Shown here one piece after another: positions 18,079-62,760 of a stretch of DNA of 64,000 bases. The notes beneath the pieces are model-generated. The model was not told where the DNA came from and searched no databases. It saw only the letters and a list, made by a program, of their open reading frames with translations. Origin of the DNA: a virus; the IMG/VR virus record IMGVR_UViG_3300007640_008134, positions 33,786 through 97,785 of that record. One strand, 5' to 3'. Position numbers and translations under genes: made by a program. Positions within the stretch are counted from its first letter, which is position 1, and every line of letters starts with the position of its first letter.

Positions 18079-18426
18079 ATGGACGAACGTCTCGAAAAAG
18101 CACTCGATATCAGTAACTATATGGTTACATTAAACAATCAAAAAAGATTACTAAATGAAAAGTATAAAGAAAATTTAGTATATTACTACAATGGCGGACA
18201 ATTTTCTATCACACATGATTTGATTAGTTTTTGCCAAAGTTTAACAGCAATGAATGTTGATACCACTATTTTAGTAGATGACAACGATATTCCTATTGTT
18301 GTTGAAGATTTAGAAAAATTTAATACTGAAGTATATTCAAAATACTTTGAAGCATCAAATGAATACTTGTTTGGATATAACGAACTAAAAAATAATAGAT
18401 CAGTAGAAAGTATTATGAATCTATGA
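18079..18426 (+). CDS. Hypothetical protein, 115 aa
   Basis: A small, mostly helical, acidic protein without a recognised family. It is the first gene after a consensus promoter and strong AGGAGG site, so probably highly expressed. Its stop overlaps the next ATG (ATGA), linking it to the glycosyltransferase genes downstream. No signal peptide or Cys cluster is visible, and no leader/core pattern that would mark it as a modified-peptide precursor. Confidence 0.55.
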   Translation: MDERLEKALDISNYMVTLNNQKRLLNEKYKENLVYYYNGGQFSITHDLISFCQSLTAMNVDTTILVDDNDIPIVVEDLEKFNTEVYSKYFEASNEYLFGYNELKNNRSVESIMNL

Positions 18427-19262
18427 CAAAAGGTGTACTATTATTTGCAAGTAATAACCAGTCTATGAACTATGTTAAACAAGCAAATTTTCTTGCCAAA
18501 CGAATAAAAAAATATATGGATTTACCAGTAACTTTAGTTACAGATGTAAAAGTAAAAGAAAAATATCCCGAATATGTAGAAAATTTTGATAACATTGTTT
18601 TTGCAATGCTAAAGCAAAACAGCTCTAGTCGTAGACATTATGACGGAGACTTACATAATCAAGTTTTACCATTTCATAATAAACACCGAGCATCTGCATA
18701 TGATTTAACTCCATATGATCAAACAATTATTATGGATACTGACTACATTATATCAAACGATATTTTGAATAATTGTTTTACACAACACAAAGATCTAATG
18801 TTGTATAAAGATGCAACACATTTAGGTATTCATGATAAAACTCCAGAGTTTCAACACATCAGTGACACAAGTGTAGATTTTTATTGGGCAACGGTTTGCT
18901 TTTTTAGAAAAACCAAAGAAACAAAAATATTTTTTGATCTAGTTAAACACATAGAAGAAAATTACTGGCACTATAGAAATGTATATCAGTTTACTAGTAG
19001 TGTGTTTAGAAATGATTTTGCATTTAGTATTGCAGCACATATTATGAACGGATATCAAGCAGGCAATTTTGTAGGAAAGTTACCAGGCAAAAAATATTAT
19101 ACAATTGGTAAAGATGTTGCACTTGATATTAAAGATGACGAAATTAAAGTATTAGTTCAAAAAACAAATCGGTTTGGCGAGTACACAGGAGTGCGGATGA
19201 AAGGATCAAACGTGCATATTATGAACAAATTTAGTTTGGAGAGAATCATTGACAACGAATAA
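18423..19262 (+). CDS. GT-A glycosyltransferase-like protein (GT8-like)
   Basis: 279 residues. An N-terminal Rossmann-like strand (VLLFASNNQ) is followed by VTLVTD and then an IIMDTDYI motif with a DxD pair at about D105/D107, the nucleotide-sugar and metal-binding signature of GT-A enzymes. The C-terminal SNVHIMNK segment resembles the late His-containing motif of GT8 proteins. It is smaller than typical bacterial GT8 enzymes (~300-340). It overlaps its neighbours on both sides and is related in layout to the next gene. Sugar donor and acceptor are unknown. Confidence 0.65.
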   Translation: MTKGVLLFASNNQSMNYVKQANFLAKRIKKYMDLPVTLVTDVKVKEKYPEYVENFDNIVFAMLKQNSSSRRHYDGDLHNQVLPFHNKHRASAYDLTPYDQTIIMDTDYIISNDILNNCFTQHKDLMLYKDATHLGIHDKTPEFQHISDTSVDFYWATVCFFRKTKETKIFFDLVKHIEENYWHYRNVYQFTSSVFRNDFAFSIAAHIMNGYQAGNFVGKLPGKKYYTIGKDVALDIKDDEIKVLVQKTNRFGEYTGVRMKGSNVHIMNKFSLERIIDNE

Positions 19263-20094
19263 CTTTACAATGTTGGCACAAAATTCTACAACAGATTATG
19301 TTCAACAAGCATGTCTTGCTGCTATGAGTATTAAAACTACAAATAGTAACGCAAGTATCTGTCTTATTACAAATGATCAAGTACCAAACAAATACAAAGA
19401 TCTTTTTGATCACGTAGTTGAAATACCTTGGGGAGATCATGCTGCGGATGAAGATTGGAAAATCAGCAATAGATGGAAAATATATCATGCTATTCCTTAT
19501 ACTGAAACTATAGTAATGGATACTGATATGCTTGTATTAGAAGATATGAGCGATTGGTTTGATTTTTTAAACAATTATGATTTATTTTTTACTAGTAATG
19601 TTTATACATACAGAGGAGATAAAGTAACAAGTAATTATTACAGACGTAGTTGGGATACATATAATTTGCCTAATTTGTATTGTGGATTACATTACTTTAA
19701 AAAGTCAGACTTAGCACATGAGTTTTATACATGGTTAGAAATGATTAATAATAATTGGATGACATTTTATAAATCAGTAGCAAATGGTAAAAAAATACAA
19801 AGATGGTGCAGTATGGATTTGAATGCATCTATTGCTGCAAAAATTATGGATGTAGAAAATATTATTACCAACAGCAAAACACAATATCCTAGCTTTACAC
19901 ACATGAAACCTAAAGTGCAAAATTGGAACAAGAATTTTTCAGACAACTGGCAATCTCGTGTAGGTGTGTATTTAGATGAAAATTGTAAATTAACAATTGG
20001 TAACTATCGTCAAAGTGGTGTGTTTCATTATACTGAAGATGATTTTGTAACAGACGATATTATAAAAAAGTACGAAAAACTATTAGGAATCTAA
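19249..20094 (+). CDS. GT-A glycosyltransferase-like protein (GT8-like), TTG start
   Basis: 281 residues. The same layout as the preceding gene: an N-terminal AMSIKTT..ASICLITND strand region and an IVMDTDML motif with a DxD pair at about D91/D93. The TTG at 19249 is chosen because GGAGAG (19238-19243) stands 5 nt upstream; a later in-frame ATG at 19270 is the alternative. The gene overlaps the end of its neighbour by 14 nt. Likely transfers a sugar to a phage or host surface component; substrate unknown. Confidence 0.65.
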   Translation: MTTNNFTMLAQNSTTDYVQQACLAAMSIKTTNSNASICLITNDQVPNKYKDLFDHVVEIPWGDHAADEDWKISNRWKIYHAIPYTETIVMDTDMLVLEDMSDWFDFLNNYDLFFTSNVYTYRGDKVTSNYYRRSWDTYNLPNLYCGLHYFKKSDLAHEFYTWLEMINNNWMTFYKSVANGKKIQRWCSMDLNASIAAKIMDVENIITNSKTQYPSFTHMKPKVQNWNKNFSDNWQSRVGVYLDENCKLTIGNYRQSGVFHYTEDDFVTDDIIKKYEKLLGI

Positions 20095-20095
20095 C

Positions 20096-20650
20096 ATGGA
20101 CTTAAAAGTTAAAAAAACTAGAATGATATCTTTTGATAACGATGGCAATATTTTATCAATTGGTAAAAAAATTGTGCAAGATTCAAATACTATAGAAGTA
20201 AACATTGATGACGTAAAAGATTTACTTTCAGGAAAATATTCATTTGCAAGTCATAAAGTACAATATGATTTTTTAGAAAAAAAGTTTGTGTTAAAAAATC
20301 AAACACAATTACAAGAAGAAAGTCATGTTAATTCTTTTTTGTTTGAAATTGAAACAAATGTCGAAAATCCTCAAATAAAAATTATTCAAGATAAATCAAA
20401 TTATCAATGGGTATTAGAGATTGATAAAGAATTTGAAACACAAATGCTTGAAAAAAATATACCTGTTGATACAAGTAAACACTTTTATAGTATAACAAAA
20501 AAAGGTGATCCTAATATTCTATATAGAATGATACAATTTGAAACAAAAACTATTCCGTTTGCATACGATTTTGAACTTGACGATAACCCATTTTCAATCT
20601 ATACTACTAAAAAGTTTCATTCTTATGGATATGAGGTAGTTGATGGATAA
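20096..20650 (+). CDS. Hypothetical protein, 184 aa
   Basis: Not recognised. It is Lys/Asp/Asn-rich, with predicted alternating beta strands, no cysteine cluster and no membrane segment. It lies between two glycosyltransferase genes, starting one base after the upstream stop and overlapping the next gene by 8 nt, so it belongs to the same transcription unit. Confidence 0.5.
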   Translation: MDLKVKKTRMISFDNDGNILSIGKKIVQDSNTIEVNIDDVKDLLSGKYSFASHKVQYDFLEKKFVLKNQTQLQEESHVNSFLFEIETNVENPQIKIIQDKSNYQWVLEIDKEFETQMLEKNIPVDTSKHFYSITKKGDPNILYRMIQFETKTIPFAYDFELDDNPFSIYTTKKFHSYGYEVVDG

Positions 20651-21566
20651 TGTTTTTAGAGTTGTTGATTATGATATCATTTATTTAAGTTATGATGAAC
20701 CTAATGCAGAAGAAAATTATTCTGATTTATGTAGAAAAGTTCCGTGGGCAAAACGTGTTCACGGTGTAAAAGGTAGTGATGCTGCACATAAAGCATGTGC
20801 AGAATTAAGCGAAACTGATAGATTTATAACCGTCGATGGTGACAATAAAATTAATGATGAGTTTTTACAACAAGTTATTAATTTTGATGTTAATGCTGAT
20901 TTAAGTAACAAAGTTATTAGTTGGAAAGCAAAAAACAAAATTAATGGATTAATGTATGGAAACGGCGGACTTAAATGTTGGCCTAAAATGCATGTTTTAA
21001 ATATGCGTACACACGAAAATGCAGATCCTGATAATCCACATGCACAAGTTGACTTTTGTTGGGATACAGAATATGTACAAATGGAAGGTGCATTTAGCAC
21101 AATTTATAATAACGCTACACCCCAACAAGCGTGGCGGGCAGGTTTCCGCGAAGGTGTAAAAATGGCATTGGACAGAGGTATACGTCCAACACTAGAAAAT
21201 TTTAGATTAAATCATTGGAAAAATTTACATCGTCTGTATGTGTGGTTAATGGTTGGTGCTGATGTAGAAAACGGCGATTGGGCTATCTACGGCGCACGTG
21301 AAGGATTGTACAAAACAATGTGTACTGATTGGGATTTTGTTAATGTACGTGACTTTGAATGGTTAAATGAATATTGGAATAGCAAAGATCTCAACGAAGA
21401 CGAAATGGAAGATAATACATTATCGCTTGGTTATAGTTTGATTGAAGAACTTGATTTGCCAATTGCAGCTGAGCCATTAAATGGTAATCAAAGTCGTTTC
21501 TTCAAAACGGTATATATTAATCCAGATAGATCAAAAGGTCAAAACTTTTTAGATAGAGAGCAATAA
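20643..21566 (+). CDS. GT-A type glycosyltransferase-like protein
   Basis: 307 residues from ATG 20643 (a TTG directly before it is less likely; GAGGT lies 5 nt upstream of that). The N-terminus YDIIYLSYDEPNAEENY and a later FITVDGDNKI (DxD at about D65/D67) fit a nucleotide-sugar-binding GT-A fold. An NGLMYGNGGLKCWP motif follows. The C-terminal half of the protein encoded at 26092 is clearly paralogous. The stop overlaps the start of the first radical SAM gene (TAATG), coupling the two. Confidence 0.65.
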   Translation: MDNVFRVVDYDIIYLSYDEPNAEENYSDLCRKVPWAKRVHGVKGSDAAHKACAELSETDRFITVDGDNKINDEFLQQVINFDVNADLSNKVISWKAKNKINGLMYGNGGLKCWPKMHVLNMRTHENADPDNPHAQVDFCWDTEYVQMEGAFSTIYNNATPQQAWRAGFREGVKMALDRGIRPTLENFRLNHWKNLHRLYVWLMVGADVENGDWAIYGAREGLYKTMCTDWDFVNVRDFEWLNEYWNSKDLNEDEMEDNTLSLGYSLIEELDLPIAAEPLNGNQSRFFKTVYINPDRSKGQNFLDREQ

Positions 21567-22939
21567 TGGAGCGTAGCGAAAGCGAAGAAATTAAACGCAT
21601 CGATGGTATAACACAAGAAATATCACCAACGTTTTGTTTTGCAAAATGGTATCATGCCAACATATATTTTCAAACAGGTGAAACACATAGTTGTTATCAT
21701 CCTGCTCCCCATAAAATTGACACAGCACCATTATTAGAAAATCCAAGTGCAATACACAACACAGCACAAAAGAAACAAGAACGTGCTGCTATGATGCGTG
21801 GCGAACAGCCTAGTGGTTGCAACTATTGCTGGAAAATTGAAGCACTTGGCAAAGATTATGTTAGTGATAGGAAACAGCGTAACCAAACTATTTTCTTCAA
21901 ACATAGATTAGCAGCAGTAAAAGAAGGCGGTGCAGAGTTTGACGTAAATCCAGAATACTTAGAAGTATCATTTGGCAACGAGTGTAACTTCCGTTGCGGT
22001 TATTGTCATCCTAAAGCCAGCAGCAGATACTATCAAGAAATTAAACAACATGGCCCGTACACAAATGTAAAAAATCACAGATGTGATATTGATTGGTTTC
22101 AAATATTTGAAGAAGAAAACAATCCTTATTTAGATGCATTTTGGCGATGGTGGCCCGAGCTTAGTAAAGAACTGCACATACTGCGTATTACTGGTGGAGA
22201 ACCTACTATACAACAAAGCACATACCGGTTGTTTGATATGCTTGATGCTGATCCTAAGCCTGACTTAGAGCTTAATTGCAACAGCAATTTAGGTGGAAAA
22301 CCAAAGCAGTTAGAAAAGTTTACAAACCGTGTAAATGATTTGTTAACAAACAACAAGATTAGACGCTTTAAAATGTTTACTAGTATTGACACTTGGGGCA
22401 AACGTGCAGAATACATACGAGACGGATTAGACATTGAAGTGTTTGAACGTAACTTGGATTATTTTATGCGTAATTGTCAAGCACCAATGGTACTAATGAT
22501 TACGTTCAACATTTTCAGTGTAACAACATTTCGCACACTACTAGAAAAAATATTAGAATGGCGTAAAAAATATAATGATGTAGAAACACACAGATGGCAG
22601 CGGTTAGGTTTTGATACACCACATCTTAAAGAGCCGTTACAATATGATATTAACATTTTGCCTAATAACTACATGAGTTATATGCGTGATCATTTGCAAT
22701 TTATAAAAGAAAATGTAGATGATAATCGTAAAGATGCATTTAGTACAATTGAGTATGAAAAGTTTAGACGTGTTGTTGACTATATGGAAACAACTGAATA
22801 TCCATTAGATAAAATTATTCAAGGACGTAAAGACTTTCACAACTTTTTTGCAGAACAAGGTCGTAGACGTGGAGTCAATCACGAAGAAGTGTTTCCAGAA
22901 ATGTCAGACTTTTTTGAACTCTGCAAGAAATACGTTTAG
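21566..22939 (+). CDS. Radical SAM protein with N-terminal twitch-type region (1 of 14)
   Basis: 457 residues. The radical SAM motif C140-NFR-C144-GY-C147 binds the [4Fe-4S] cluster that cleaves S-adenosylmethionine, and TGGEP follows in the core. The N-terminal region has C24, C43 and a C85..C88 pair, an arrangement like the auxiliary-cluster region of the twitch-domain family (N_twi_rSAM in NCBIfam, from memory), but the usual CC dyad is a single Cys here. It is translationally coupled to the glycosyltransferase before it. Its 3' end overlaps a minus-strand gene by 36 nt. Substrate unknown. Confidence 0.85.
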   Translation: MERSESEEIKRIDGITQEISPTFCFAKWYHANIYFQTGETHSCYHPAPHKIDTAPLLENPSAIHNTAQKKQERAAMMRGEQPSGCNYCWKIEALGKDYVSDRKQRNQTIFFKHRLAAVKEGGAEFDVNPEYLEVSFGNECNFRCGYCHPKASSRYYQEIKQHGPYTNVKNHRCDIDWFQIFEEENNPYLDAFWRWWPELSKELHILRITGGEPTIQQSTYRLFDMLDADPKPDLELNCNSNLGGKPKQLEKFTNRVNDLLTNNKIRRFKMFTSIDTWGKRAEYIRDGLDIEVFERNLDYFMRNCQAPMVLMITFNIFSVTTFRTLLEKILEWRKKYNDVETHRWQRLGFDTPHLKEPLQYDINILPNNYMSYMRDHLQFIKENVDDNRKDAFSTIEYEKFRRVVDYMETTEYPLDKIIQGRKDFHNFFAEQGRRRGVNHEEVFPEMSDFFELCKKYV

Positions 22940-23518
22940 TGCAAGTTCTGTTTCAGGCCACATATTTTCTTTTAGTTTTTTAATATAAAAATCTACATCT
23001 ACACGCCAAAATGTTTGGAAAGTGCCTTTGTATTCTAGTTCAATAGGGTCTTTTAAATATCCTTGATTGTGCATTATTTTAGCCCAAATGCGATGTACTT
23101 TGTTTTGGCTTCCAACTTCGTTTGTGTTTGTGCTAATATACATAGGTTTTTCTAATCCTACGTAATGCATACAAACTGGAGTCAGCATTTGACTAGTCCA
23201 ATGATTCATTGGCGAGTGTCGATAGTTATGCACAGCATGAGCACGATTGCCATCGATTAAATCATTTAATACGCAGGTCCTTGCACTAATACGATGTGCG
23301 TTTTTTCCTAATATACCCAATTGTCGTAGACTATGACTTATACTTGTTCCAACTACTTTATCTTTGTAATACATTAAAAATAGTGTAGCATCTTCGTGTT
23401 TGTCAATGTAGTCAATAAGTACCGTTTTATTATGATTATTGTAAAAACCTTTTGCTTCTGCGCCAGCATAAAACTCTGTCAAATCCTGTGTGCCGTTGTA
23501 TATTTCTAGTCTATACAA
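22904..23518 (-). CDS. GNAT-like acetyltransferase candidate, 204 aa
   Basis: A 204-residue protein whose middle (ATLFLMYYKDKVVGTSISH) looks like the beta2-beta3 hairpin of GNAT N-acetyltransferases. The acetyl-CoA-binding Q/RxxGxG/A loop is not obvious, so the assignment is tentative. The start is a TTG that overlaps the stop of the adenylation gene by 8 nt, placing the two in one minus-strand operon. Its 3' end runs 36 nt into the convergent radical SAM gene. Confidence 0.4.
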   Translation of the reverse strand: MYRLEIYNGTQDLTEFYAGAEAKGFYNNHNKTVLIDYIDKHEDATLFLMYYKDKVVGTSISHSLRQLGILGKNAHRISARTCVLNDLIDGNRAHAVHNYRHSPMNHWTSQMLTPVCMHYVGLEKPMYISTNTNEVGSQNKVHRIWAKIMHNQGYLKDPIELEYKGTFQTFWRVDVDFYIKKLKENMWPETELALNVFLAEFKKV

Positions 23519-24572
23519 AAGTTTGTGTCCTTATAATCTTTTTCAAGTTATCGTCAATTTTTATTTCATTTACTGCTCGCAATCTAAAGCGAGGAATATA
23601 TCTAAATTCTTCTACAAATTCCGCCATATATTTTATATGTCCGGTGTAATGGACCACGCATTGATTTCCTACTTGCCGACATAATGCAAGTTCTGCGCCT
23701 GCTGCTACTGCTGCTTTTTCTATTTGTTCTGGATACACTCTAATTGTATCTTGCTTAAACATATTTGGCATTCGTCCGTTAAGTGTAAAACGATTTCTAT
23801 CACCTTGTACACAATCACCACTTACCCATATATTAGGTTGACTACTCCATTTACAGCATATTTGATTATTTACAATATCTAGTTCTGCACCTGGTGCAAT
23901 ACTTTCTGCTGTATAAGTATTTTCTTCTTCGCTGTATAAAACAATAGGAGGTACTTCTGTGCTACCATACACATTGTAAACTTTATTTGGGCCATGTTCA
24001 CGTAATTCGTCTAGCATTCCTATTGGTGTAAAATCACTTCCTGTAATAAGTGTGTTTACACTGCTGTAATCTAATGTCTGCCATTTTTTGTGTTTGTATA
24101 AAGTTTTCCAAACATTAGGTAACAACAGCGTATGTGTAGGACGGATATCATGTATACGATTTACATAATCAATTCCTTTAAAAGTTTCAATGTAAAGTTC
24201 ACAATTTAATTTAAGAGCGAGATATACACTTAATACACTGAATGCAATACCACGAGGTGAATAGTAACTAAGTATTTTACTATTTTTTTCTAAATTTAAA
24301 ATTTTTATATTTGCATTTACTGCTTGCTCAATAGTTTCTTTACTATGACCGATATGTTGTGGAAATCCTGTAGTGCCACTTGTACTTAGATTTAAAAATT
24401 TATCGCCTCTATAGCCATAACTATATCCACTTTGCCAGTACCAGTTGTGTAGTAGTTTTAATACATTCTGTTCCCAGTCAGGCTTATCACTAAAACAATC
24501 TACAGGATTGCTCAGTGTATAATCGCTAATCCATTGTTCAGAGATTTGTTCACCATCTATGTAAATTTTCAT
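23511..24572 (-). CDS. AMP-forming adenylation enzyme (acyl/aryl-CoA ligase-like), compact
   Basis: 353 residues, against 500-600 in typical ANL-family enzymes. The core motifs are present in order: STSGTTGFPQ (P-loop, ~63-72), VYGSTEVPP (~201-209), SGD (D253) and GRMPNMFK (~266-273). A shortened C-terminal lobe ends with NLKKIIR, where a Lys could serve as the adenylation lysine. It should activate a carboxylate as an acyl-AMP. No acyl-carrier protein or phosphopantetheine transferase is visible nearby. It has a minus-strand promoter that predicts a leaderless transcript, and it overlaps the GNAT-like gene downstream. Confidence 0.8.
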   Translation of the reverse strand: MKIYIDGEQISEQWISDYTLSNPVDCFSDKPDWEQNVLKLLHNWYWQSGYSYGYRGDKFLNLSTSGTTGFPQHIGHSKETIEQAVNANIKILNLEKNSKILSYYSPRGIAFSVLSVYLALKLNCELYIETFKGIDYVNRIHDIRPTHTLLLPNVWKTLYKHKKWQTLDYSSVNTLITGSDFTPIGMLDELREHGPNKVYNVYGSTEVPPIVLYSEEENTYTAESIAPGAELDIVNNQICCKWSSQPNIWVSGDCVQGDRNRFTLNGRMPNMFKQDTIRVYPEQIEKAAVAAGAELALCRQVGNQCVVHYTGHIKYMAEFVEEFRYIPRFRLRAVNEIKIDDNLKKIIRTQTFV

Positions 24573-24577
24573 GCTTT

Positions 24578-24605
24578 ATTATAACACAATTTTAGTGTAA
24601 GTCAA
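24578..24605 (-). promoter_or_regulatory. Minus-strand sigma70 promoter TTGACT-N16-TATAAT, leaderless start
   Basis: Read on the minus strand, TTGACT (24605-24600) and TATAAT (24583-24578) are 16 nt apart. The adenylation gene's ATG begins 6 nt after the -10 box, about where transcription should begin, and there is no room for a ribosome-binding site. The promoter overlaps the 3' end of the minus-strand fibre gene. Confidence 0.7.
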
Positions 24606-26019
24606 CCCACGCAGAACCTGTGTATCCTTGGAATTTATTATTACTTGTATTGAAAATAATCATTCCTGCTTCAGCAGTCATACTATCTCTTGCTGCAAAA
24701 TTTGTACCACGGGCTTTAAAAACAGGAACTTCTAAAACACCTGCACTATTAAATTCTAAATTCATGCTTTGATTTGCTATAGGAGTTGCAGATCCTGTTC
24801 CTAGTGCAACACTAAACCCTGTTTTTACACTACTATCAGTTGAAGTAGGAGCAGTGTTTCTGTCAACAAAGAATCCAAAATGTCCTGCATCAACAAATCC
24901 TGCACCATTATAACCAAGAGCTGCAACCATAAGCATTGGATCTGATGTTTGTAATGCTGTTTTTGCTTCTGGTGTTCCTCTAAAAGCGTTGACTAATTCA
25001 GTTGCATCTCCGTCAGATATATTGAAGTTTTTAACAATACTTTCTGCATTAAACTCAATATCACTTGTGTAATCCATACCAAGTTGTAGTACACCGTTAT
25101 TAGCATATATCGAAGTTGTGCTACCAACCCATGTCATAATGTCAGTTGTTCCATCCATTAGCCTGCCTTGTACAGCACCAAAGTAATTACTTTTTACAAT
25201 GTCTGCTTCTAGACCGTAGTCTTCTGTTGGTGTTAAAGTTAGCTGTGGAGTGCCATCATATGCAACTATATCGGCTTTTAAATATGCATCTGTGCGTGTA
25301 GCACCAATTCCTAAAATAGGTCCCTTTCCAGCATTATCAATATGAGAAATACCGCCTCTCATTTCCCATTGTCTATGAGCTGCATGTTCGTTGTAAGCAA
25401 TCAGTACGGTTGGATCTGTTTCATCTCTTTGTACAGCCATAATTTGTCCGTACAAATCTCCGGTAACGTTACCAGTAACATCACCCGTAACATTACCGTC
25501 TACATTACCAAAGTGATGTCCGGTTGTATTTCCAGTAACTTCTCCAGTAACATCGCCAACAACATTACCAATTAAGTTACCTCTAATTGTACCTGTTGTG
25601 TTAAGAGTTCCGTAAAACGTACCAGTAATACTATCAGCTACAATTGTTGTTGCATCTATTGATTTTGTAGTATGGTTAATCATGACAACACCTTCGCTGT
25701 CATACATATTACCTTGCATGTTGCCTACCAGTAGTGCTTGTTCGCTGTTTAAAACAATATTACCATTTGTGTTACGTACATCACCTTTAATATCAGTAGT
25801 AAATAAACGTAGATCGTTATTAAAGATAGTGTTACCGGAAATATCTTCAATATCTCCTACTAATGGACCATATATTTTTCCGTTTGTTGTGTCAACTTGT
25901 AAAACACCGTCACGTGTTACAACATTGCCTTTAACTTGGCTTGTCCAGCTGTCAACGATAACTTGTTCATCAGCGCCTACAACATCAATTCTATATGCGT
26001 CACCTGGTATAATTGTCAT
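24592..26019 (-). CDS. Tail fibre-like structural protein embedded in the accessory island
   Basis: 475 residues. From about 150 to 190 it has a run of short repeats of the G-[NDE]-V-T-G type, a beta-helical shaft as in other phage fibres and in the protein encoded at 10431. The N-terminal part has repeated V.GDI.D..GN..F.. units. The C-terminus ends with EAGMIIFNTSNNKFQGYTG, a tip motif common in phage fibre and decoration proteins. It lies on the opposite strand to most of the island and has a late-type promoter plus GGAGG site. It probably forms an additional fibre or surface protein; receptor unknown. Confidence 0.75.
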   Translation of the reverse strand: MTIIPGDAYRIDVVGADEQVIVDSWTSQVKGNVVTRDGVLQVDTTNGKIYGPLVGDIEDISGNTIFNNDLRLFTTDIKGDVRNTNGNIVLNSEQALLVGNMQGNMYDSEGVVMINHTTKSIDATTIVADSITGTFYGTLNTTGTIRGNLIGNVVGDVTGEVTGNTTGHHFGNVDGNVTGDVTGNVTGDLYGQIMAVQRDETDPTVLIAYNEHAAHRQWEMRGGISHIDNAGKGPILGIGATRTDAYLKADIVAYDGTPQLTLTPTEDYGLEADIVKSNYFGAVQGRLMDGTTDIMTWVGSTTSIYANNGVLQLGMDYTSDIEFNAESIVKNFNISDGDATELVNAFRGTPEAKTALQTSDPMLMVAALGYNGAGFVDAGHFGFFVDRNTAPTSTDSSVKTGFSVALGTGSATPIANQSMNLEFNSAGVLEVPVFKARGTNFAARDSMTAEAGMIIFNTSNNKFQGYTGSAWVDLH

Positions 26020-26038
26020 GGTAATCCTCCGTACAAAC

Positions 26039-26046
26039 TATTTATC
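26039..26046 (-). promoter_or_regulatory. Probable late promoter (GATAAATA, minus strand)
   Basis: The plus strand reads TATTTATC, that is GATAAATA on the minus strand, 19 nt before the ATG at 26019. A GGAGG ribosome-binding site lies between. It is the same octamer as at 9792 and 14436, so this fibre gene is probably expressed late with the other structural genes. Confidence 0.6.
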
Positions 26047-26056
26047 AATTCTAAAC

Positions 26057-26085
26057 TTGACAAGCTAGTTATATTATCATATAAT
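26057..26085 (+). promoter_or_regulatory. Consensus sigma70 promoter TTGACA-N17-TATAAT, leaderless start
   Basis: Both hexamers are perfect (26057-26062 and 26080-26085). The ATG of the glycosyltransferase gene begins at 26092, 7 nt after the -10 box, about where transcription should start, with no ribosome-binding site. It is back to back with the minus-strand late box at 26039, forming a divergent early/late control region. Confidence 0.8.
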
Positions 26086-26091
26086 TATAGT

Positions 26092-31208: not shown

Positions 31209-31764
31209 TGATATTCCTAGTTTTAAAGATCCGTCAATTGACTTTAATCTTTCTAACGCAATTAAAAAATATAATCCAAAAAAAATACTTGAAGTAGGAG
31301 TTGGATTAGGTAGTAGTACTTGGAATATACTTGATAGTGTATCCAACACTATAGTTTATGCTTTAGATAAATTTGAATTTAATACAGAACCATATAGAAT
31401 AGAAAAAATTAAAGAACATAAATTTTATTATGAAAAAGCAAAACAAGATAAACAAATTGTTAATGATGCATATGAACATTACAATATATTTTGCTGGTTG
31501 ATTGATCAACATCAAAACCCTTGTTTTGTAATTAAACAAGATATATGGGATTTTATAGAAAATGAAAAAAACACTTTTGATTTTGTATTTTTAGATAATC
31601 AAAAACATCTGCCAGTTTTGTTAAAACAACTAGAATTTTTTGCAGATAGTGTTATTTGTGGAACTGGCTATACTAATGAACATAATAAAAAAGATGTTGA
31701 CTTATTTTCTGTTGATAAAAAATTATTTGTTGATAATGATTTTTGGATTATTGACAAAAACTAA
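31198..31764 (+). CDS. Class I SAM methyltransferase-like protein, 188 aa
   Basis: KILEVGVGLGSST (~29-41) is a good motif I for SAM binding, followed by an acidic strand end VYALDKFEF and FDFVFLDNQKH as motif IV. A short enzyme of the type found in glycan and small-molecule clusters. It starts 11 nt before the end of the upstream radical SAM gene. The next gene has its own promoter, which begins inside this gene's last codons. Confidence 0.7.
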   Translation: MKHNDIPSFKDPSIDFNLSNAIKKYNPKKILEVGVGLGSSTWNILDSVSNTIVYALDKFEFNTEPYRIEKIKEHKFYYEKAKQDKQIVNDAYEHYNIFCWLIDQHQNPCFVIKQDIWDFIENEKNTFDFVFLDNQKHLPVLLKQLEFFADSVICGTGYTNEHNKKDVDLFSVDKKLFVDNDFWIIDKN

Positions 31765-56376: not shown

Positions 56377-57526
56377 AACATTTTGCGTATTACCATGGAT
56401 GAGTTTAGCTACAAGTGCAAGTGGCATTATGAGAGTATGCTGTAATAGTACACCGGGTAAGAATTTTATTATGAAAGATGATGGCAATGCTTACCGTGTC
56501 AACAAAGACAATATAGAAGAAGCATGGAATAGCGAAACCTACAAAAAAATTAGACAAGAAATGCTCAACGGCGAACGTCCTGAAATGTGTACACGTTGCT
56601 TTAGAGAAGAAGATGCTGGTATAACAAGTACTAGACAAAACTGGAATGAAAAATGGGCTCAAGATAGAGATTATCCAGTTGAAGCACCTTTTACAATACG
56701 TTATGTTGATATACGTTTAGGTAATCTATGTAACTTAAAATGCCGTATGTGCAATCCGTATGCAAGTAATCAATGGGTAAAAGAATGGCATTTAGTAAGT
56801 GATGCACTAGAAGAAAGTGAATACAATAGATTAAAAAATATGGATTGGCCAGAACACGAAACGGTATGGGATAATCTTTTTAAAATTGCAGATACGGTAG
56901 AGGAAATATATTTAACTGGTGGCGAGCCAACTATTATCAAAGAACAACATAGATTATTAGATTATTATATTGATAGCGGTAAAGCAAAAAAAATTAAATT
57001 AAAATACAATACTAATCTTACAAATGTGCCTGCAGAATTGATGCAAAAATGGAGTCATTTCAAACGTGTACAGCTAAATTGCAGTATTGATGCTACAGGT
57101 GAGTTAGATAGATATATTAGATATCCAAGCAACTGGGATAAAATTGTAGAAAACTTTGAGGCAATAACTAAACTTGAAAATGCATTTGTAGAAATTCATT
57201 GTACGGTACAAATGTACAATATATTAAAACTAAATGACTTTATAGAATGGGCATTGCCTTATGACTACAAGATTTACTTTAATATTCTTAATCATCCTGA
57301 AGAACTTAACATTAGAGTTCTACCAAAAGAATTAAAAGATCTTGCAGCAAAACGTTTAGAACCATATACTTGGTTACCTAAAGTGCAAGGTATAATTGAT
57401 TATATGTATGCAGAAGATTGGTCAAATAAATATAATAAGTTTGTTGATTATACAAAAAATTTAGATATTAGTAGGAAAGAAAATTTAATTGAAATTATTC
57501 CCGAGTTTGCCAGTTATTCACCTTAA
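56363..57526 (+). CDS. Radical SAM protein, N-terminal twitch type
   Basis: 387 residues. N-terminal cysteines: C8 in FCVLPW, a CC dyad at 26-27 and C76..C79 followed by REEDAGITSTRQ. The radical SAM motif is C123-NLK-C127-RM-C130, then TGGEPTIIKEQHR and LNCSIDATGELDRYIRYPSNW. It shows the complete twitch-type motif set and is a good reference for the group. It leads the second radical SAM/FkbM/SGNH cassette. Substrate unknown. Confidence 0.92.
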   Translation: MTQSKTFCVLPWMSLATSASGIMRVCCNSTPGKNFIMKDDGNAYRVNKDNIEEAWNSETYKKIRQEMLNGERPEMCTRCFREEDAGITSTRQNWNEKWAQDRDYPVEAPFTIRYVDIRLGNLCNLKCRMCNPYASNQWVKEWHLVSDALEESEYNRLKNMDWPEHETVWDNLFKIADTVEEIYLTGGEPTIIKEQHRLLDYYIDSGKAKKIKLKYNTNLTNVPAELMQKWSHFKRVQLNCSIDATGELDRYIRYPSNWDKIVENFEAITKLENAFVEIHCTVQMYNILKLNDFIEWALPYDYKIYFNILNHPEELNIRVLPKELKDLAAKRLEPYTWLPKVQGIIDYMYAEDWSNKYNKFVDYTKNLDISRKENLIEIIPEFASYSP

Positions 57527-58208
57527 CCATATAGAACTAGTTAGAAATATTACAAGAGATGAATTTATACTAGGAAAAAAGCAATACGATAACTATCATA
57601 TAGGTTATGCAATTGCAAAACATTATAAAAAACTAGGAACATATATAAATGTTGGTTTACATTATCCGACGTCTATGGGTGTATGTTCGTGGCATGATTA
57701 TGTTTATGGTTTTGAACCTGATTTCACAATTAATGAAATTAAAAAATGGTGTGTACAACAAGGATACGAAAATTTTACCTTAGTACAACAACCCTTATAC
57801 TCTCACAGAAAACTTACAGAATTTTATGTTGTTCCTGAAGAATATAGAGCTAAAAATCCAGAAAAAATGGGAGGTAACACCCTAGACAGATTTAGATGGA
57901 AAGAAGATTTTGAACCAAAAGTCTTAAATGTACAAACCAACACAATAGACAAATTTGTTAGAATAAAAAATATAAAAAACATAGACTTTATAAAAGTTGA
58001 TGCAGAAGGTGCAGATGCTAAGATTATTTTAGGAGCAGAATGGACGGTAAGTAAATATAAACCTATAATACAAATTGAATGTCCTCAGAATATAGTGGTT
58101 CCTTTGCTCCGTGAGAATAATTACTATAGTGTACAATTTAAAAGTGCTATTACTAGGACACACGGTCCTGTAGATTATTGGTTTATACCAGGAGAGTTGA
58201 TTACATGA
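57489..58208 (+). CDS. FkbM-type SAM methyltransferase, 239 aa, TTG start
   Basis: TYINVGLHYPTS occupies motif I, VYGFEPD the acidic strand, and IDFIKVDAEGADAKIILGA the classic FkbM D.EG.e..il.GA motif. A TTG start at 57489 with AGGAAAG 9 nt upstream gives a 38-nt overlap with the radical SAM gene; no in-frame ATG is available before the conserved region. It is the counterpart of the gene at 51854 in the duplicated cassette. Probably an O-methyltransferase on a sugar or peptide; inferred. Confidence 0.72.
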   Translation: MKLFPSLPVIHLNHIELVRNITRDEFILGKKQYDNYHIGYAIAKHYKKLGTYINVGLHYPTSMGVCSWHDYVYGFEPDFTINEIKKWCVQQGYENFTLVQQPLYSHRKLTEFYVVPEEYRAKNPEKMGGNTLDRFRWKEDFEPKVLNVQTNTIDKFVRIKNIKNIDFIKVDAEGADAKIILGAEWTVSKYKPIIQIECPQNIVVPLLRENNYYSVQFKSAITRTHGPVDYWFIPGELIT

Positions 58209-58915
58209 AGATCGGTGTTTTTGGAGATAGCTTTGCAGGACATACTGGCGATTTGGAAGCGAAACAAAAACGTTGGACAGAGCATTTACAAGAAATGCGT
58301 CCAGATTGGTATATTGGCAACCATGGATTTGCAGGTAGCAGTTTGTATTGGACATACAACCAAATTAGACAACACGAAGCTGCGTACGATAAATTGATAG
58401 TAATTTATACTAATCCTAATCGTTTATGGTTACCAAAATTAACTGACTACAATATTGAACATTGTTATGGATATCATTATATAATGCGCAGAGAAAACAG
58501 ATCAGATTGGGATCCAAAATCAATACTAGCAAAAAAGATGGCACCAGGATTGAAATTTTATTATCAATATATTTGTGACGAACGTGAACAAAACTTGTAC
58601 TGGAAATTGTTGGTTGAAGAAATTAGGAATATGCCAAATGTTGAGTTGTGTATTCCTGCTATGACAAGAACAGCAAACGAACCTATTAAAGCTTCTATGA
58701 CACGGATAGCAGATATAGATCATGAAATTTTTAAGGTAAATGTTATGAAAGACGATTTTGCTGATTTAAGAGCATGTCATATGAATCAAAAAAATAACAT
58801 ACAATTTGCCAAACGTATTTTAGAACATTTTGATGATATACGTGAATTTGATATAAATTTAAAAGAGTATGGTCCGCCAGATGCAGATGAACTCGTTATA
58901 GGATCCTATAAATGA
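58205..58915 (+). CDS. SGNH-like protein, 236 aa
   Basis: From ATG 58205 (GGAGAG upstream; the frame reaches 58178). MKIGVFGDSFAGHTGD is block I with GDS, NHGFAGSSLYWTYNQI the Gly block, and IVIYTNPNRLW the strand seen also in the protein encoded at 48743 (IISHTNPFRIY). DLRACHMNQKNNIQFA is a possible distal D..H. Third gene of the second cassette. It overlaps the preceding and following genes by 4 nt each. Likely acyl hydrolase or transferase; inferred. Confidence 0.6.
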   Translation: MKIGVFGDSFAGHTGDLEAKQKRWTEHLQEMRPDWYIGNHGFAGSSLYWTYNQIRQHEAAYDKLIVIYTNPNRLWLPKLTDYNIEHCYGYHYIMRRENRSDWDPKSILAKKMAPGLKFYYQYICDEREQNLYWKLLVEEIRNMPNVELCIPAMTRTANEPIKASMTRIADIDHEIFKVNVMKDDFADLRACHMNQKNNIQFAKRILEHFDDIREFDINLKEYGPPDADELVIGSYK

Positions 58916-60129
58916 AACATATGGTTTGTAGTAAAATGTGGACAGATATTAACATTCGTGTGCCACAGCAGTCTATAGTCAATTGTTGTAAAAAAACTAA
59001 TCAAAAAGTAACCATAGATGAAATTGATGAAAAAGGCACTCAAGTTTTTTTACATAGAAAAAAAGAACAAAAAGAAAAAAAGTTTTTTGTAAAACAAAAT
59101 AATTTTCCTGATGGATGTAAAGAATGTGCTTTAAATCATCCTGATAGTTTGTGGAGCGTTTGGAATACATGGAAAAATTATAATTTTACACAAAGTGATT
59201 TAATAAAACTGCAAAATCCTAATTATGATACTGGAAGACATATTGAAATAATGCTTAGTAATACTTGCAATATGACATGTATGTATTGTAATGGTTATGT
59301 AAGTAGTATGTGGTCAGATATTGATGGATTAAAAAACAATAATACAGATGAAGATATTTGGAAAACAAAAATCTTAGACAACTTGTACAAATATATTAGA
59401 AAATCTGAACAATGGTTAGATTATAATTTTATTGGTGGAGAACCTTTACTTGATCCTATGTTTACAGATGTTTTTAAAAATATCATCGATGCACATAAAA
59501 ATTCAAATGCTAAATTTGGTGGAATAAGTTTAACAACAAACCTAAATGTAAAACCAAAGGTTTTAGAAAACTTTTTAGATATGTGGAAAGATAGTGGATT
59601 AAAAAATCTACGTATTTGTCCTAGTATAGATGCCATGGGTAACGAAGGAAGTACAATACGTGAAGGATTGATATGGGAAAGATTTTGGAAAAATGCAGAA
59701 ACTATTTTGCAAGATAGTTCTGTAACAAGTGTTAGCTGGCTTCCTACTATAAGTGCATTAAGTGTGCCTTATCATTATAATATGATAAAAACTATTACAG
59801 ATATTTCAATTAAAAATAGAGGTAATGATAAATGGGAACTAGGACATAATTATGTTAATGAACCTGCTGCAATGAGTCCTCGTATTTTGCCGCTAAAATA
59901 TAAAACAGAAATCAACAAGACAATAGATTACTTAGAAAGTTTGAACATAAAGCATAACATACATCATATAAATTTATGTAAAAATGTTGCAGCAATGCTA
60001 GGAACAAACAGGAAATTAGACCAATTACAAAAAGCTAAAGATTGGTATATTTTACAAGGAGGAATGAAGCAAAAAGATTATTTTGTTGAATTTCCTTGGT
60101 TAGGAGAAGTATTAAATGGACTGGAATGA
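58912..60129 (+). CDS. Radical SAM protein, divergent N-terminal twitch type
   Basis: 405 residues. N-terminal cysteines: C6, a CC dyad at 25-26 and C69..C72, so the pattern is kept although the surrounding sequence is unlike the others (Lys-rich 45-65). The radical SAM motif is C119-NMT-C123-MY-C126, then FIGGEPLLDPMF and ICPSIDAMGNEGSTIREG. It overlaps the nitroreductase gene after it by 14 nt. Substrate unknown. Confidence 0.86.
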   Translation: MKHMVCSKMWTDINIRVPQQSIVNCCKKTNQKVTIDEIDEKGTQVFLHRKKEQKEKKFFVKQNNFPDGCKECALNHPDSLWSVWNTWKNYNFTQSDLIKLQNPNYDTGRHIEIMLSNTCNMTCMYCNGYVSSMWSDIDGLKNNNTDEDIWKTKILDNLYKYIRKSEQWLDYNFIGGEPLLDPMFTDVFKNIIDAHKNSNAKFGGISLTTNLNVKPKVLENFLDMWKDSGLKNLRICPSIDAMGNEGSTIREGLIWERFWKNAETILQDSSVTSVSWLPTISALSVPYHYNMIKTITDISIKNRGNDKWELGHNYVNEPAAMSPRILPLKYKTEINKTIDYLESLNIKHNIHHINLCKNVAAMLGTNRKLDQLQKAKDWYILQGGMKQKDYFVEFPWLGEVLNGLE

Positions 60130-60778
60130 ATTAATTTATTCACGGCACAGCTTTAACAATTTTAATATGAATGAAGTTATACCCGAAGAACATGTTGAAA
60201 AACTAATGAATGATTTATGTGCAACATTGCCTAGTAAGCAAGGAAGATATCCATACTTTATAGATGTTTTCAATTGGAGCAATAAAGATTTAAGATTATG
60301 GATGTATGAATATTGTACTTGGATTGATCAAGATAGTTCTAATCATAAACCATTTAACAAACAACCCCAAATGGCAGCACCATTGCTTATAACTTTTACC
60401 GTTCCTACTACACCTATTACAGACTTACCAGTTCCTGAAACAGATTGGCCTATTGGAGTTATGATAGACAATGTTGCACAATCACATATGGAAGTAGGAA
60501 TGGCTGCAATGCACCTAGTACATGCTGCATATGATTTAGGATACCAAGCAGGATTTTGTGGTTGTATTCCTGACCCTAGTTATTTTGCTAAAAAAATTGG
60601 TTATGCCAATCATCAAACATGGGTTTGCTTGGGTATTGGAACAAAACCAAATTTTGATCATAATCCTGAAGCCGAAGGATATTGGAGATGCCCGGTTGAT
60701 GGTATTGTATACAAACGTGGTGTGCATTCAAATCAGCCTAGACCGGAAGTAGGAAAATTTATAAAATATCATAATTGA
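60116..60778 (+). CDS. Nitroreductase-family flavoprotein, 220 aa
   Basis: LIYSRHSFNNF near residue 6 matches the R-x-S/R-x-x-F FMN-phosphate motif, MAAPLLITFTVP is the central strand, and HMEVGMAAMHLVHAAYDLGYQAG is the flavin-facing helix, followed by WVCLGIGTKPN. Length and motif order fit the FMN nitroreductase family, which reduces or dehydrogenates substrates with NAD(P)H. It is more complete than the related protein encoded at 28390. It stands directly before a radical SAM gene that has its own promoter. Confidence 0.75.
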   Translation: MDWNELIYSRHSFNNFNMNEVIPEEHVEKLMNDLCATLPSKQGRYPYFIDVFNWSNKDLRLWMYEYCTWIDQDSSNHKPFNKQPQMAAPLLITFTVPTTPITDLPVPETDWPIGVMIDNVAQSHMEVGMAAMHLVHAAYDLGYQAGFCGCIPDPSYFAKKIGYANHQTWVCLGIGTKPNFDHNPEAEGYWRCPVDGIVYKRGVHSNQPRPEVGKFIKYHN

Positions 60779-60803
60779 CAAAAACAATAAATGAGTATAT
60801 AAT
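60775..60803 (+). promoter_or_regulatory. Consensus sigma70 promoter TTGACA-N17-TATAAT, leaderless start
   Basis: Both hexamers are perfect (60775-60780 and 60798-60803). The -35 box overlaps the nitroreductase stop. The next ATG is at 60810, 7 nt after the -10 box, with no ribosome-binding site. The geometry is the same as at 26057 and 31751. Confidence 0.8.
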
Positions 60804-60809
60804 ACTAAT

Positions 60810-61931
60810 ATGACAGAAGATTTAAAATGGTCAAACTATGACTTTACTAAAATACCTTTTAACGACATTGTCCAAGTGGGACAACGAACGCTGCTCTACA
60901 GAGATATCTTTACGGTATCTTGGTTACTAGGTAGATTTTGCAATTATCGTTGCAGTTATTGTTGGCCTTATGCCAGGAGTGACCGAAAAGACCACAGACC
61001 GACTGAACTCTGTCTTAAAACAATTGATGAAATAAAGAGGCAAGCACGTGATAACGGATTTAATAGCTTTCATTTTAGTTTGTCTGGGGGCGAGCCTACC
61101 TTTCATCCAGGGTACTTGGACATACTTGGTCACTTGGCTGATGATGTCGATAATACTAATTATACTTCTGTCCATATGACATCAAACTGCTCACGCCCAA
61201 TGAAGTGGTTTGAGGATTATGTAGAACGTGTTAAGCCGTTTCATAGAGCAAGTATTACAGCAAGTCTTCATACAGAGCATTTAGACACAAAGGAGAAAAT
61301 GCAGGATTTTGCAGATAAACTAATCCTGTGTCAAGAACACGATGTACAAGTTACAATTAATATGGTTATGGTTCCTGAATGGTTTGAGCGAGATTGGGAA
61401 AACGCCTTATTCTTCCATGAACAAGGAATTAATGTTACTCTTAAGCCCCAGTCCGATCCAACGGCCTCCCGTGTTGTGGATGGGTATAGTGACGAAATGC
61501 TTAAAAGACTCTGGAACGGTATGCCACAAAGAGCCTACACAGAATCAAAAAGAAAATTTGTAGATAGGCCAAAACCAAAGTTTGAAATACCTACTGACAT
61601 TATGTACAAGCATGATGCAAGTGTACCTTGGCATATGCAAGTTGAATTTAGAGATAGTACTGGTAAAGCATGGTATATGGATCAAGCAGAACGTTTTAAT
61701 GCGTTTAACTTTAATAAATTTAAAGGGTGGAATTGCAATGCAGGATATCAAGGAATTATTATTAGAGAACCAGACGGTAGTATTAAGCGTAGTTATAGCT
61801 GTCATGACGTTCCACTTGGCAATATAGAAACAGGATTTAAATTGTTTGATAAACCGATGCCTTGTATGACTGAAAGTTGTGTTAGTTCAGCAGATAGTAA
61901 AATTCCCAAAAGAAAATATGATAACGTATAG
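60810..61931 (+). CDS. Radical SAM protein, third type, 373 aa
   Basis: C44-NYR-C48-SY-C51 with the preceding FTVSWLLGRF entry, then LSGGEPTFHPGY. The C-terminal part has WNCNAGY, an IIIREPDGSIKRSYSCHD stretch, GNIETG and PCMTESC, a SPASM-like set. It is related to the protein encoded at 41467. The coding sequence has patches clearly richer in G+C than the island (about 48% and 55% in the 60-base rows at 60961 and 61081, 57% at 61441, counted by hand), then returns to about a third. Expected to be transcribed from its own promoter as a leaderless mRNA. Confidence 0.87.
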   Translation: MTEDLKWSNYDFTKIPFNDIVQVGQRTLLYRDIFTVSWLLGRFCNYRCSYCWPYARSDRKDHRPTELCLKTIDEIKRQARDNGFNSFHFSLSGGEPTFHPGYLDILGHLADDVDNTNYTSVHMTSNCSRPMKWFEDYVERVKPFHRASITASLHTEHLDTKEKMQDFADKLILCQEHDVQVTINMVMVPEWFERDWENALFFHEQGINVTLKPQSDPTASRVVDGYSDEMLKRLWNGMPQRAYTESKRKFVDRPKPKFEIPTDIMYKHDASVPWHMQVEFRDSTGKAWYMDQAERFNAFNFNKFKGWNCNAGYQGIIIREPDGSIKRSYSCHDVPLGNIETGFKLFDKPMPCMTESCVSSADSKIPKRKYDNV

Positions 61932-62760
61932 AGCTGAAGGAATAAAAGATCCAAATTTTGAATATGATTTAGTTGCAAAATGGCATAATATTGAAACTTT
62001 TATTGTAACATATAAAAACTGGATTATAACAAGCAAAAATAATTGTGTAACTGGATTAAATAATTTTAGTGCATATGTCACTGATGGAGTTACAAGTGCA
62101 TTTAGCGATTTTGAAAAAAGCTATAAACATTTAGAAACATGTGTATTTAGAGGTGAATATCCTTATCATCATACTTTAGGAATAAAATCAATCGATAACT
62201 TAAAAGAGTTATCTAAACAAAATAAATTGATTATAAGTTATCCATTTTCTGCCCATGGAAACAAACACGAACATTTTGATGACATAATCGATTATTGTAA
62301 TTTGTGTGATATTCCTGTCTTTTTAGATATGGCCTTTTTTGGAACTTGTGCTAATGTAAATATAAATGTACATCAACCTTGTATTAAATTTGTTGCGTTT
62401 AGTTTAAGCAAAACATTTGTTACTGGATTTTGTAGAACAGGAATATGTTTTACCAATGAACAAAATATTGCAATGAAATTAATTAATGAATACTATTATG
62501 TAAATCATGTAAGTTTAGGAATGCATACAAACTTGCTTAAAAATTTTTCAGCAGACTATGTGTATAACAAATACAGAAGTAAACAAATAAAGATATGCAA
62601 TGAAATAGATTTTGAACCAAGTGATACGGTATTTTTAGGATACAGCTTTACAAACAAAACATTTGGTAAAAAATATTCAAGAGAAGGGTATGTAAATAGA
62701 GTAGGTTTAAATTATGCTTTGTTAGAAGACAATTATAATCTTAAACCTATTCCTTTTTAA
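61918..62760 (+). CDS. Shortened PLP-dependent aminotransferase-like protein, 280 aa
   Basis: From ATG 61918 (the frame reaches 61879). The fold-type I landmarks are visible: LIISYPFSAHGN, PVFLDMAFFGTC with D137 (pyridine-nitrogen Asp), FVAFSLSKTF with K165 (Schiff-base Lys) and R173 in FCRTG. At 280 residues it lacks about 100 found in class I aminotransferases, mainly the small domain, so it may be a reduced enzyme or act on an unusual substrate. Its stop shares TTAA with the stop of the convergent protease gene. Confidence 0.7.
   Translation: MITYRAEGIKDPNFEYDLVAKWHNIETFIVTYKNWIITSKNNCVTGLNNFSAYVTDGVTSAFSDFEKSYKHLETCVFRGEYPYHHTLGIKSIDNLKELSKQNKLIISYPFSAHGNKHEHFDDIIDYCNLCDIPVFLDMAFFGTCANVNINVHQPCIKFVAFSLSKTFVTGFCRTGICFTNEQNIAMKLINEYYYVNHVSLGMHTNLLKNFSADYVYNKYRSKQIKICNEIDFEPSDTVFLGYSFTNKTFGKKYSREGYVNRVGLNYALLEDNYNLKPIPF

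Follow-up and report, generated by a model that had tools for sequence, protein, structure and literature searches.

Twenty radical SAM genes in an island beside the tail fibres of a T4-like phage: a possible pathway for glycan tailoring

What use would a phage have for twenty radical S-adenosylmethionine (SAM) enzymes? Radical SAM enzymes use up SAM and need iron-sulfur (Fe-S) clusters, and the question is raised by an island at positions 18079-62760 of a viral sequence window of 64,000 nucleotides (the whole stretch analysed), which corresponds to bases 33786-97785 of the 97,785-base IMG/VR record IMGVR_UViG_3300007640_008134, classed as linear and ending to the right of the island. The island holds 47 genes and is 99.1% coding, in agreement with the nearly gapless cluster described by a first-pass annotation of the sequence; only four gaps exceed 20 nucleotides (nt), the largest measuring 212 nt, and radical SAM genes account for 51.6% of the bases.

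The same annotation had counted twenty genes with a CxxxCxxC motif, and all twenty open reading frames (ORFs) were recovered at their positions, on the plus strand, intact and with one CxxxCxxC each (genes are named here by their starts). A PF04055 search retrieved 19 of them, together with one gene outside the window, and 30381 was recovered by hmmscan (E 3e-10); thus, the motif and the PF04055 match are present in all 20, joined by an invariant GGE in the 14 N_Twi proteins described below. Shuffling within proteins yielded a mean of 0.19 motif-bearing genes and a maximum of 3 in 500 shuffles, which rules out chance motifs as an explanation. Furthermore, since a separately assembled contig of 57 kilobases (kb), G015, carries the same island at 100% identity, an assembly artefact is ruled out. 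The record has one more radical SAM gene, its 21st (L009:986-1840, minus strand), which lies outside the island and the window and directly adjoins the major capsid gene. The proposed division into 14, four and two enzymes was reproduced with NCBIfam (14 NF033640 proteins, four with the core first and a Cys tail, and two belonging to a third type), as follows:

21566-22939, plus strand: N_Twi radical SAM enzyme, anchor; NF033640, 298.6 bits
29321-30394, plus strand: N_Twi radical SAM enzyme; NF033640, 254.2 bits
30381-31208, plus strand: radical SAM enzyme, core first with SPASM/twitch-like tail; PF04055, E 3e-10; PF13186, E 0.009
31785-32867, plus strand: radical SAM enzyme, core first with Cys tail, anchor; 46-82% identity in 12 relatives
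32864-33964, plus strand: N_Twi radical SAM enzyme; NF033640, 204.2 bits
33939-34997, plus strand: radical SAM enzyme, core first with Cys tail; TIGR04317-like, below cut-off
37094-38494, plus strand: N_Twi radical SAM enzyme, most widespread anchor; NF033640, 423.6 bits
39332-40660, plus strand: N_Twi radical SAM enzyme; NF033640, 194.8 bits
41467-42621, plus strand: radical SAM enzyme, third type; PF04055, E 5e-9; 92% identity in G034
43152-44300, plus strand: N_Twi radical SAM enzyme (mechanical ORF from 43113); NF033640, 232.1 bits
44300-45616, plus strand: N_Twi radical SAM enzyme; NF033640, 387.2 bits
45613-46605, plus strand: radical SAM enzyme, core first with SPASM-like tail; TIGR04317, 70.5 bits, below cut-off
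46598-47743, plus strand: N_Twi radical SAM enzyme, tandem paralogue of 47740; NF033640, 228.6 bits
47740-48813, plus strand: N_Twi radical SAM enzyme, tandem paralogue of 46598; NF033640, 230.7 bits
50665-51861, plus strand: N_Twi radical SAM enzyme; NF033640, 278.3 bits; TIGR04085 SPASM-like match at the N-terminus
54102-55286, plus strand: N_Twi radical SAM enzyme; NF033640, 282.4 bits
55279-56376, plus strand: N_Twi radical SAM enzyme; NF033640, 204.2 bits
56363-57526, plus strand: N_Twi radical SAM enzyme, anchor; NF033640, 404.8 bits; model pLDDT 92.3
58912-60129, plus strand: N_Twi radical SAM enzyme, divergent; NF033640, 168.2 bits
60810-61931, plus strand: radical SAM enzyme, third type, most conserved anchor; 84-89% identity in 10 relatives

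NF033640 (N_Twi_rSAM), whose curated NCBIfam cut-off is 170 bits, gives the best family match for 14 of the 20 enzymes, 13 scoring above the cut-off and 58912 just below it. These 14 share with the family an N-terminal twitch domain placed before the radical SAM core and differ from it in standing as 14 paralogues within one island. Besides the CxxxCxxC triad and GGE, their alignment shows C8, C26, C76, C79 and S241/D243 to be invariant, and the paralogues have 21-38% identity to one reference member; the alignment of all 14 was too diverse for collection searches, for which a closer subset was used instead. Positions 4-70 of the N-terminal N_Twi profile match the C-terminal twitch domain (187-257) of BtrN, a 2-deoxy-scyllo-inosamine dehydrogenase. 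This detectable similarity sets the auxiliary-cluster domain on the opposite side of the core, an order permuted relative to BtrN, and the N_Twi core best matches other enzymes. The predicted N_Twi structure is nearest to SkfB, CteB, viperin, anSME, BlsE and SuiB; as some of these act on peptides and others on small molecules, the model does not point to one substrate. In a tree of 226 N_Twi proteins, 12 of the 14 are placed beside another virus or a bacterium and a sister pair is formed only by 46598 and 47740 (support 1.0); by this placement the set is gathered from old, separate lineages, and recent gene amplification is ruled out except for that one pair. Among isolated phages, only Vibrio phages and a single further marine phage proved to have N_Twi relatives, which occupy 1-5 places per record; the genes of the KVP40-like Vibrio phages are N_Twi-like at less than 27% identity.

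The core-first enzymes (30381, 31785, 33939 and 45613) have GNxGD or a similar sequence at the SAM site and a C-terminal Cys tail, and neither they nor the third type (41467 and 60810) match any NCBIfam family above its cut-off. For 60810, no relative was found in sequenced bacterial genomes (pattern search), in isolated phages or in PDB.

The rest of the record identifies the carrier. Sequence reading recognised head, tail, gp46/47-like and sigma-like genes of T4 type, and T4-like portal, capsid and tail genes are present, in support of the phage origin assumed from the start. The portal protein is nearest to those of the jumbo phages Phosso, Atu_ph07 and PA5oct (49-53%), and some relatives retrieved with the portal or with radical SAM proteins are records 236-330 kb long, which points to the record being probably a fragment of a jumbo phage genome. 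An ORF of 3264 amino acids lies left of the island, whose immediate borders are:

10431-18026, plus strand: tail-fibre/virion block (genes 10431, 12458, 14465, 16015 and 16983), adjoining the island on the left
62757-63923, minus strand: subtilisin-like protease, right border of the island in the window; PF00082, E 1.1e-6

Within the block, 10431, 12458 and 14465 have PHROGs matches to tail or collar fibre and virion structural proteins. Elsewhere in the record, sequence reading suggests a tryptophan-halogenase-like flavoprotein (L009:13972-15615, minus strand), and a Pfam Trp_halogenase match occurs in the island region of one relative.

The first-pass annotation had regarded the density of radical SAM genes as exceptional for one phage, an appraisal that was not sustained: related records carry 12-25 each (by PF04055, 25 in G067, 22 in G064, 21 in G066 and 20 in G058, with 19-20 in this record by the same search), and radical SAM-rich cases have already been published (PMC5332604; PMC7029224). 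Six of 14 portal relatives are without radical SAM genes, these records being fragments. Across about 16 virus records, a fixed order of anchor genes runs from the tail fibres through 18079, the GT8 genes 18423 and 19249, 20096, 20640 and the radical SAM gene 21566 to 26092, 27131 and the radical SAM genes 31785, 37094, 56363 and 60810; between the anchors lie variable genes, and anchors are occasionally lost. Like numbers in the same order among relatives had been named in advance as the mark of a known trait; the anchor order is indeed common, whereas the gene sets between anchors differ. The non-radical anchors are:

18079-18426, plus strand: conserved 115-amino-acid protein, island head; 33-69% in relatives
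18423-19262, plus strand: GT8-type (glycogenin-like) glycosyltransferase, conserved position; profile A10 to glycogenin, E 1.8e-5
19249-20094, plus strand: GT8-type glycosyltransferase; profile A10, DTD motif
20640-21566, plus strand: divergent GT-A-like glycosyltransferase; AlphaFold pLDDT 88.9, invariant DxD
26092-27150, plus strand: divergent GT-A-like glycosyltransferase, same family as 20640; mechanical ORF start 25936
27131-28177, plus strand: repeat and putative methyltransferase-like protein; 31-59% in relatives, fixed position; no Pfam match, fold by eye

Both 18423 and 19249 show the sequence profile and the DxD motif of GT8. The family of 20640 and 26092 has no Pfam match; its top PDB matches in Foldseek are consistently of GT-A fold, at weak scores (E 7e-4 to 1e-3, TM about 0.3), and its named viral matches are mostly glycosyltransferases. 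The start of 26092 is likely at 26092 rather than at 25936 because of the promoter position and the homologue lengths. An 857-amino-acid relative of this protein (L133:9862-12432, minus strand) has several N-terminal tandem repeats.

The five core radical SAM anchors (21566, 31785, 37094, 56363 and 60810) are far more conserved than the tail fibres: identity reaches 60-95% in 13 relatives for 37094 and 64-77% for 56363, against mostly 30-50% for the fibre block. Ratios of nonsynonymous to synonymous substitution (dN/dS) against G034, rough because dS is about 1 or more, were 0.037 for 21566, 0.043 for 37094, 0.048 for 41467, 0.054 for 42605, 0.073 for 44300 and 0.09 for 33939, versus 0.24-0.33 for the five fibre-block genes, and by these estimates the core radical SAM genes are under strong purifying selection. 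A further possibility raised beforehand, that most copies are broken in relatives, did not materialise, since frames are intact, with no internal stops, in nearly all copies among the matches listed. Relatives add UDP-glucose dehydrogenase, epimerase, DegT, carbamoyltransferase, and oxygenases of Asp/Asn hydroxylase type and others. TokK-like cobalamin-dependent radical SAM methylases, absent from the window, number 21 proteins in 11 related virus records and match 7kdx at 261 bits (for example, L127:11373-13439, minus strand). Two contigs labelled as bacterial metagenome-assembled genomes (MAGs), L154 and L175 (Gammaproteobacteria MAG MED685 and Halobacteriovoraceae MAG SAT179), have phage-like islands with genes that reach 86% identity to the core set of the phages and were left out of the comparison as probably misbinned phage contigs. 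Moreover, the Bdellovibrionota contigs L159, L172 and L174, one of 936 kb, hold radical SAM arrays whose genes are 54-68% identical to those of virus G001, which suggests that these bacteria and the phages have exchanged genes.

Promoters were searched with the sigma-70 consensus TTGACA-16/17-TATAAT; random 75-mers match it with at most one mismatch in 0.45% of cases and with at most two in 2.5%. The following sites were found in the island:

18028-18056, plus strand: sigma-70 promoter at the island head, TTGACA-17-TATAAT, 0 mismatches
26057-26085, plus strand: perfect sigma-70 promoter, 6 nt before the ATG of 26092
31751-31778, plus strand: perfect sigma-70 promoter, 6 nt upstream of the 31785 start codon, without conservation among relatives
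45555-45582: perfect sigma-70 promoter before 45613
60775-60803, plus strand: perfect sigma-70 promoter, 6 nt before the ATG of 60810, conserved

Strict promoters number 86 in the record and its relatives, versus 13 in shuffled sequence. The island-head promoter recurs with 0-2 mismatches in 11 of 12 orthologues of 18079, and that of 60810 with 0-1 mismatch in 10 of 11, standing 5-6 nt before the ATG. In the record and relatives L117-L153 the promoter-to-ATG distance has two modes (19 promoters at 5-6 nt and 39 at 18-42, the interval 7-17 being empty), and a -10 box only 5-6 nt before the ATG implies, by its geometry, that the predicted messages of 26092, 31785 and 60810 are leaderless. Tail-fibre operons, on the other hand, carry TAAATA[CT] about 30 nt upstream (for 14465 in 7 of 13), a motif similar to T4-type late promoters; it precedes 7 of the 156 radical SAM genes, a share close to the background of 2%. 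A search with the T4-type TATAAATA gave few sites, the motif in use being TAAATA[CT]. By this partition of motifs, the tail fibres probably follow another transcriptional programme than the island.

Among the remaining genes of the island, the companion labels first assigned were retained for AMP-forming ligase, asparagine-synthase type, FkbM, nitroreductase and short-chain dehydrogenase/reductase (SDR), more weakly for SGNH and pyridoxal phosphate (PLP) genes, and the oxygenase label of 53228 found no Pfam match:

22904-23518, minus strand: possible N-acyltransferase (FeeM-like, very weak); PF21926, E 0.039
23511-24572, minus strand: AMP-forming ligase; PF00501, E 1.8e-17
24592-26019, minus strand: repetitive fibre-like protein; weak PHROGs matches to unknown function; late-type motif upstream in 4 of 6
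28390-29328, plus strand: nitroreductase-like; PF00881, E 0.0034, below cut-off
34948-35808, plus strand: protein without Pfam or PHROGs match
35808-37082, plus strand: asparagine-synthase-type amidotransferase; PF13537, E 2.5e-10; PF00733, E 7.6e-10
38481-39335, plus strand: PP-loop ATPase, ligase-type; PF01171, E 0.013, below cut-off; SGGADSA loop and C-terminal CxxC
40653-41477, plus strand: PP-loop ATPase, paralogue of 38481, same protein cluster
42605-43165, plus strand: SDR-like; PF00106, E 0.0018, below cut-off
48743-50632, minus strand: three SGNH-like hydrolases (48743, 49272, 49934); GDSL, E 0.029, for 48743 only, the others by sequence reading
51854-52477, plus strand: FkbM-type methyltransferase; PF05050, E 6.3e-13
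52374-53234, plus strand: SGNH-like by sequence reading; no Pfam match
53228-54109, plus strand: putative 2-oxoglutarate oxygenase, semi-conserved; no Pfam match; about 70% in four relatives
57489-58208, plus strand: FkbM-type methyltransferase; PF05050, E 2.8e-15
58178-58915, plus strand: SGNH-like by sequence reading; no supporting Pfam match
60116-60778, plus strand: nitroreductase-like; PF00881, E 4.4e-6
61879-62760, plus strand: PLP aminotransferase-like; PF00155, E 0.019, below cut-off

Taken as a pathway, the island, a hypervariable region adjacent to the tail fibres, may encode combinatorial glycan tailoring in the infected cell, a reading that we favour tentatively and at somewhat less than even confidence. 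Host RNA polymerase would transcribe the island apart from the late virion genes, the glycosyltransferases would build or extend a saccharide, and the conserved radical SAM enzymes would perform steps common to all these phages. The variable radical SAM enzymes, through reactions of epimerisation, dehydrogenation, methylation or C-C bond type, would together with ligases, FkbM methyltransferases and SGNH proteins add a phage-specific decoration. The likely target would be the envelope glycan of the infected cell, whose altered surface would no longer be bound by competing phages, and diversity would be kept by selection, as in O-antigen clusters. We favour this reading because the anchor order is conserved and its non-radical members include GT8 enzymes and proteins of GT-A-like fold; because companions are of sugar type (UDP-glucose dehydrogenase, epimerase, DegT and carbamoyltransferase in relatives, asparagine-synthase-type and FkbM enzymes here); and because the N_Twi twitch matches that of BtrN, an aminocyclitol dehydrogenase. 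The contrast in dN/dS (0.04-0.07 for four radical SAM genes versus 0.24-0.33 for fibres), the separate lineages of 12 of the 14 N_Twi enzymes and the sigma-70 promoters on the island versus TAAATA[CT] on fibre operons argue in the same direction, as do pelagimyophage clusters with GT8 and radical SAM genes, which have been proposed for O-chain remodelling (PMC7029224).

Several observations weigh against glycan tailoring. A complete sugar-nucleotide pathway was not found in this record, and the nearest solved N_Twi folds are mostly peptide maturases (SkfB, CteB, SuiB and anSME), beside BlsE and viperin. Bacterial neighbours of N_Twi genes are not clearly glycan genes (of 105 genes near versus far, GT2 2 versus 0 and DegT 2 versus 0): many Bacteroidota N_Twi genes stand alone, those of Marinifilum lie beside acetate-kinase genes, and some Bdellovibrionota and Jettenia loci have them beside GT2 genes. 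In addition, the GT-A call depends on weak Foldseek scores of a modelled fold, dS near or above 1 makes the dN/dS contrast rough, relatives do not share the promoters found at 31785 and 45613, and a sigma-70 promoter would be compatible with late use of the product.

The first-pass annotation had proposed a pathway that decorates tail proteins or a surface polymer. A multi-enzyme pathway is supported and either target is possible, the glycosyltransferase anchors and sugar-type companions favouring the polymer. Modification of the phage's tail fibres or other proteins of the virion, or of a glycan that these carry, with an effect on receptor binding or stability, is rather unlikely in our view, even though in nearly all relatives whose sequence covers that side the tail-fibre block comes before the island, the best N_Twi fold neighbours modify peptides or proteins, and Asp/Asn hydroxylase-family companions form six protein clusters in relatives. 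Unrelated genes often stand beside fibres in T4-type hypervariable regions, and fibres at 30-50% identity next to core enzymes at 58-89% would be odd for enzymes bound to one protein substrate; the sigma-70 promoters, separate from the late-type motif of the fibres, argue mildly against a purely virion-assembly role. Production of a small natural product or of a modified peptide akin to ribosomally synthesised and post-translationally modified peptides (RiPPs), released or used inside the host, is doubtful. The AMP ligase, the asparagine-synthase-type enzyme and the nitroreductases do resemble a secondary-metabolism toolkit, as do the TokK-like methylases of 11 relatives and the tryptophan halogenase read in this record and matched in one relative, but a precursor gene would have no free space in the few gaps of the island, no known RiPP maturase family passes its cut-off, and the most constant neighbours are glycosyltransferases. 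SkfB, CteB, SuiB and anSME are the best fold neighbours of the N_Twi model; nevertheless, the N_Twi enzymes differ from the SPASM/twitch RiPP maturases in domain order, in the lack of a precursor peptide found here and in reaching no curated maturase cut-off.

Nucleotide chemistry, either 7-deazaguanine DNA modification by QueE/QueC-like enzymes or viperin-like antiviral nucleotides, is highly improbable. A weak QueE-like PHROG match of 60810, the PP-loop genes 38481 and 40653 and QueC matches among bacterial neighbours might suggest it; however, no radical SAM protein passes the QueE cut-off and the best viperin (NF038283) score is 46.9 bits against a cut-off of 180, so both readings were rejected on family scores. 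QueD is absent from this record and from five of the relatives tested, and 20 divergent enzymes are too many for either pathway. Most improbable of all is that the genes are selfish or neutral passengers of a hot spot without a common pathway: the content between anchors is variable, as such passengers would have it, but strong purifying selection, the fixed anchor order, the conserved promoters and the intact frames of nearly all copies among the matches listed speak against it.

Among the closest known systems, the host recognition cluster of pelagimyophages, in which radical SAM cassettes and GT8 genes are proposed to remodel host O-chains (PMC7029224), is likewise a hypervariable island of about 45 kb beside the tail fibres of a T4-like marine phage. 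Here, half of the bases belong to 20 radical SAM genes, some of which are fixed core anchors, and promoters are recognised as well; the island is similar, and the phage, near jumbo Phosso, Atu_ph07 and PA5oct, is not a pelagimyophage. The pelagimyophage cluster lies between VrlC and gp14; in the present record the ORF of 3264 amino acids stands on the left, and the sequence stops to the right of the island. The T4-like marine environmental genome TARA_ERS488813_N000010 was reported, in a count of Fe-S genes, to have an Fe-S carrier gene besides its 12 radical SAM genes (PMC5332604), versus 21 radical SAM genes in the present record, in whose sequenced part neither an A-type carrier nor IscU was found. 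Viral Fe-S assembly as a constant partner is ruled out, with the A-type carrier in 8 of 23 records and IscU in 4 of 23; a Fer2 ferredoxin was found in just 1 of 12. Islands of this kind are known already; the literature searched contained no description of the extent seen here, of anchors with cassettes between them, of the match that implies a permuted twitch or of the promoter pattern.

A region of 45 kb with half of its length given to radical SAM enzymes is rare among phages, and since several dozen related records have such islands and the core is under purifying selection, the product would matter to the virus. From these records come more than 100 radical SAM enzymes that are uncharacterised and whose genomic order is defined; 37094, 31785, 56363 and 60810 form their small invariant core. 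It is quite conceivable, if short of probable, that a clade of marine jumbo phages maintains a modular radical pathway, with a constant core and interchangeable cassettes, which makes phage-specific biopolymer modifications by undescribed reactions; if so, the radical SAM enzymes with a permuted twitch would constitute a novel class of catalysts for tailoring polymers. A host-envelope target would mean phage-borne diversification of surface chemistry, and a virion target a novel type of protein modification in viruses; in both cases the function of N_Twi radical SAM enzymes would become testable.

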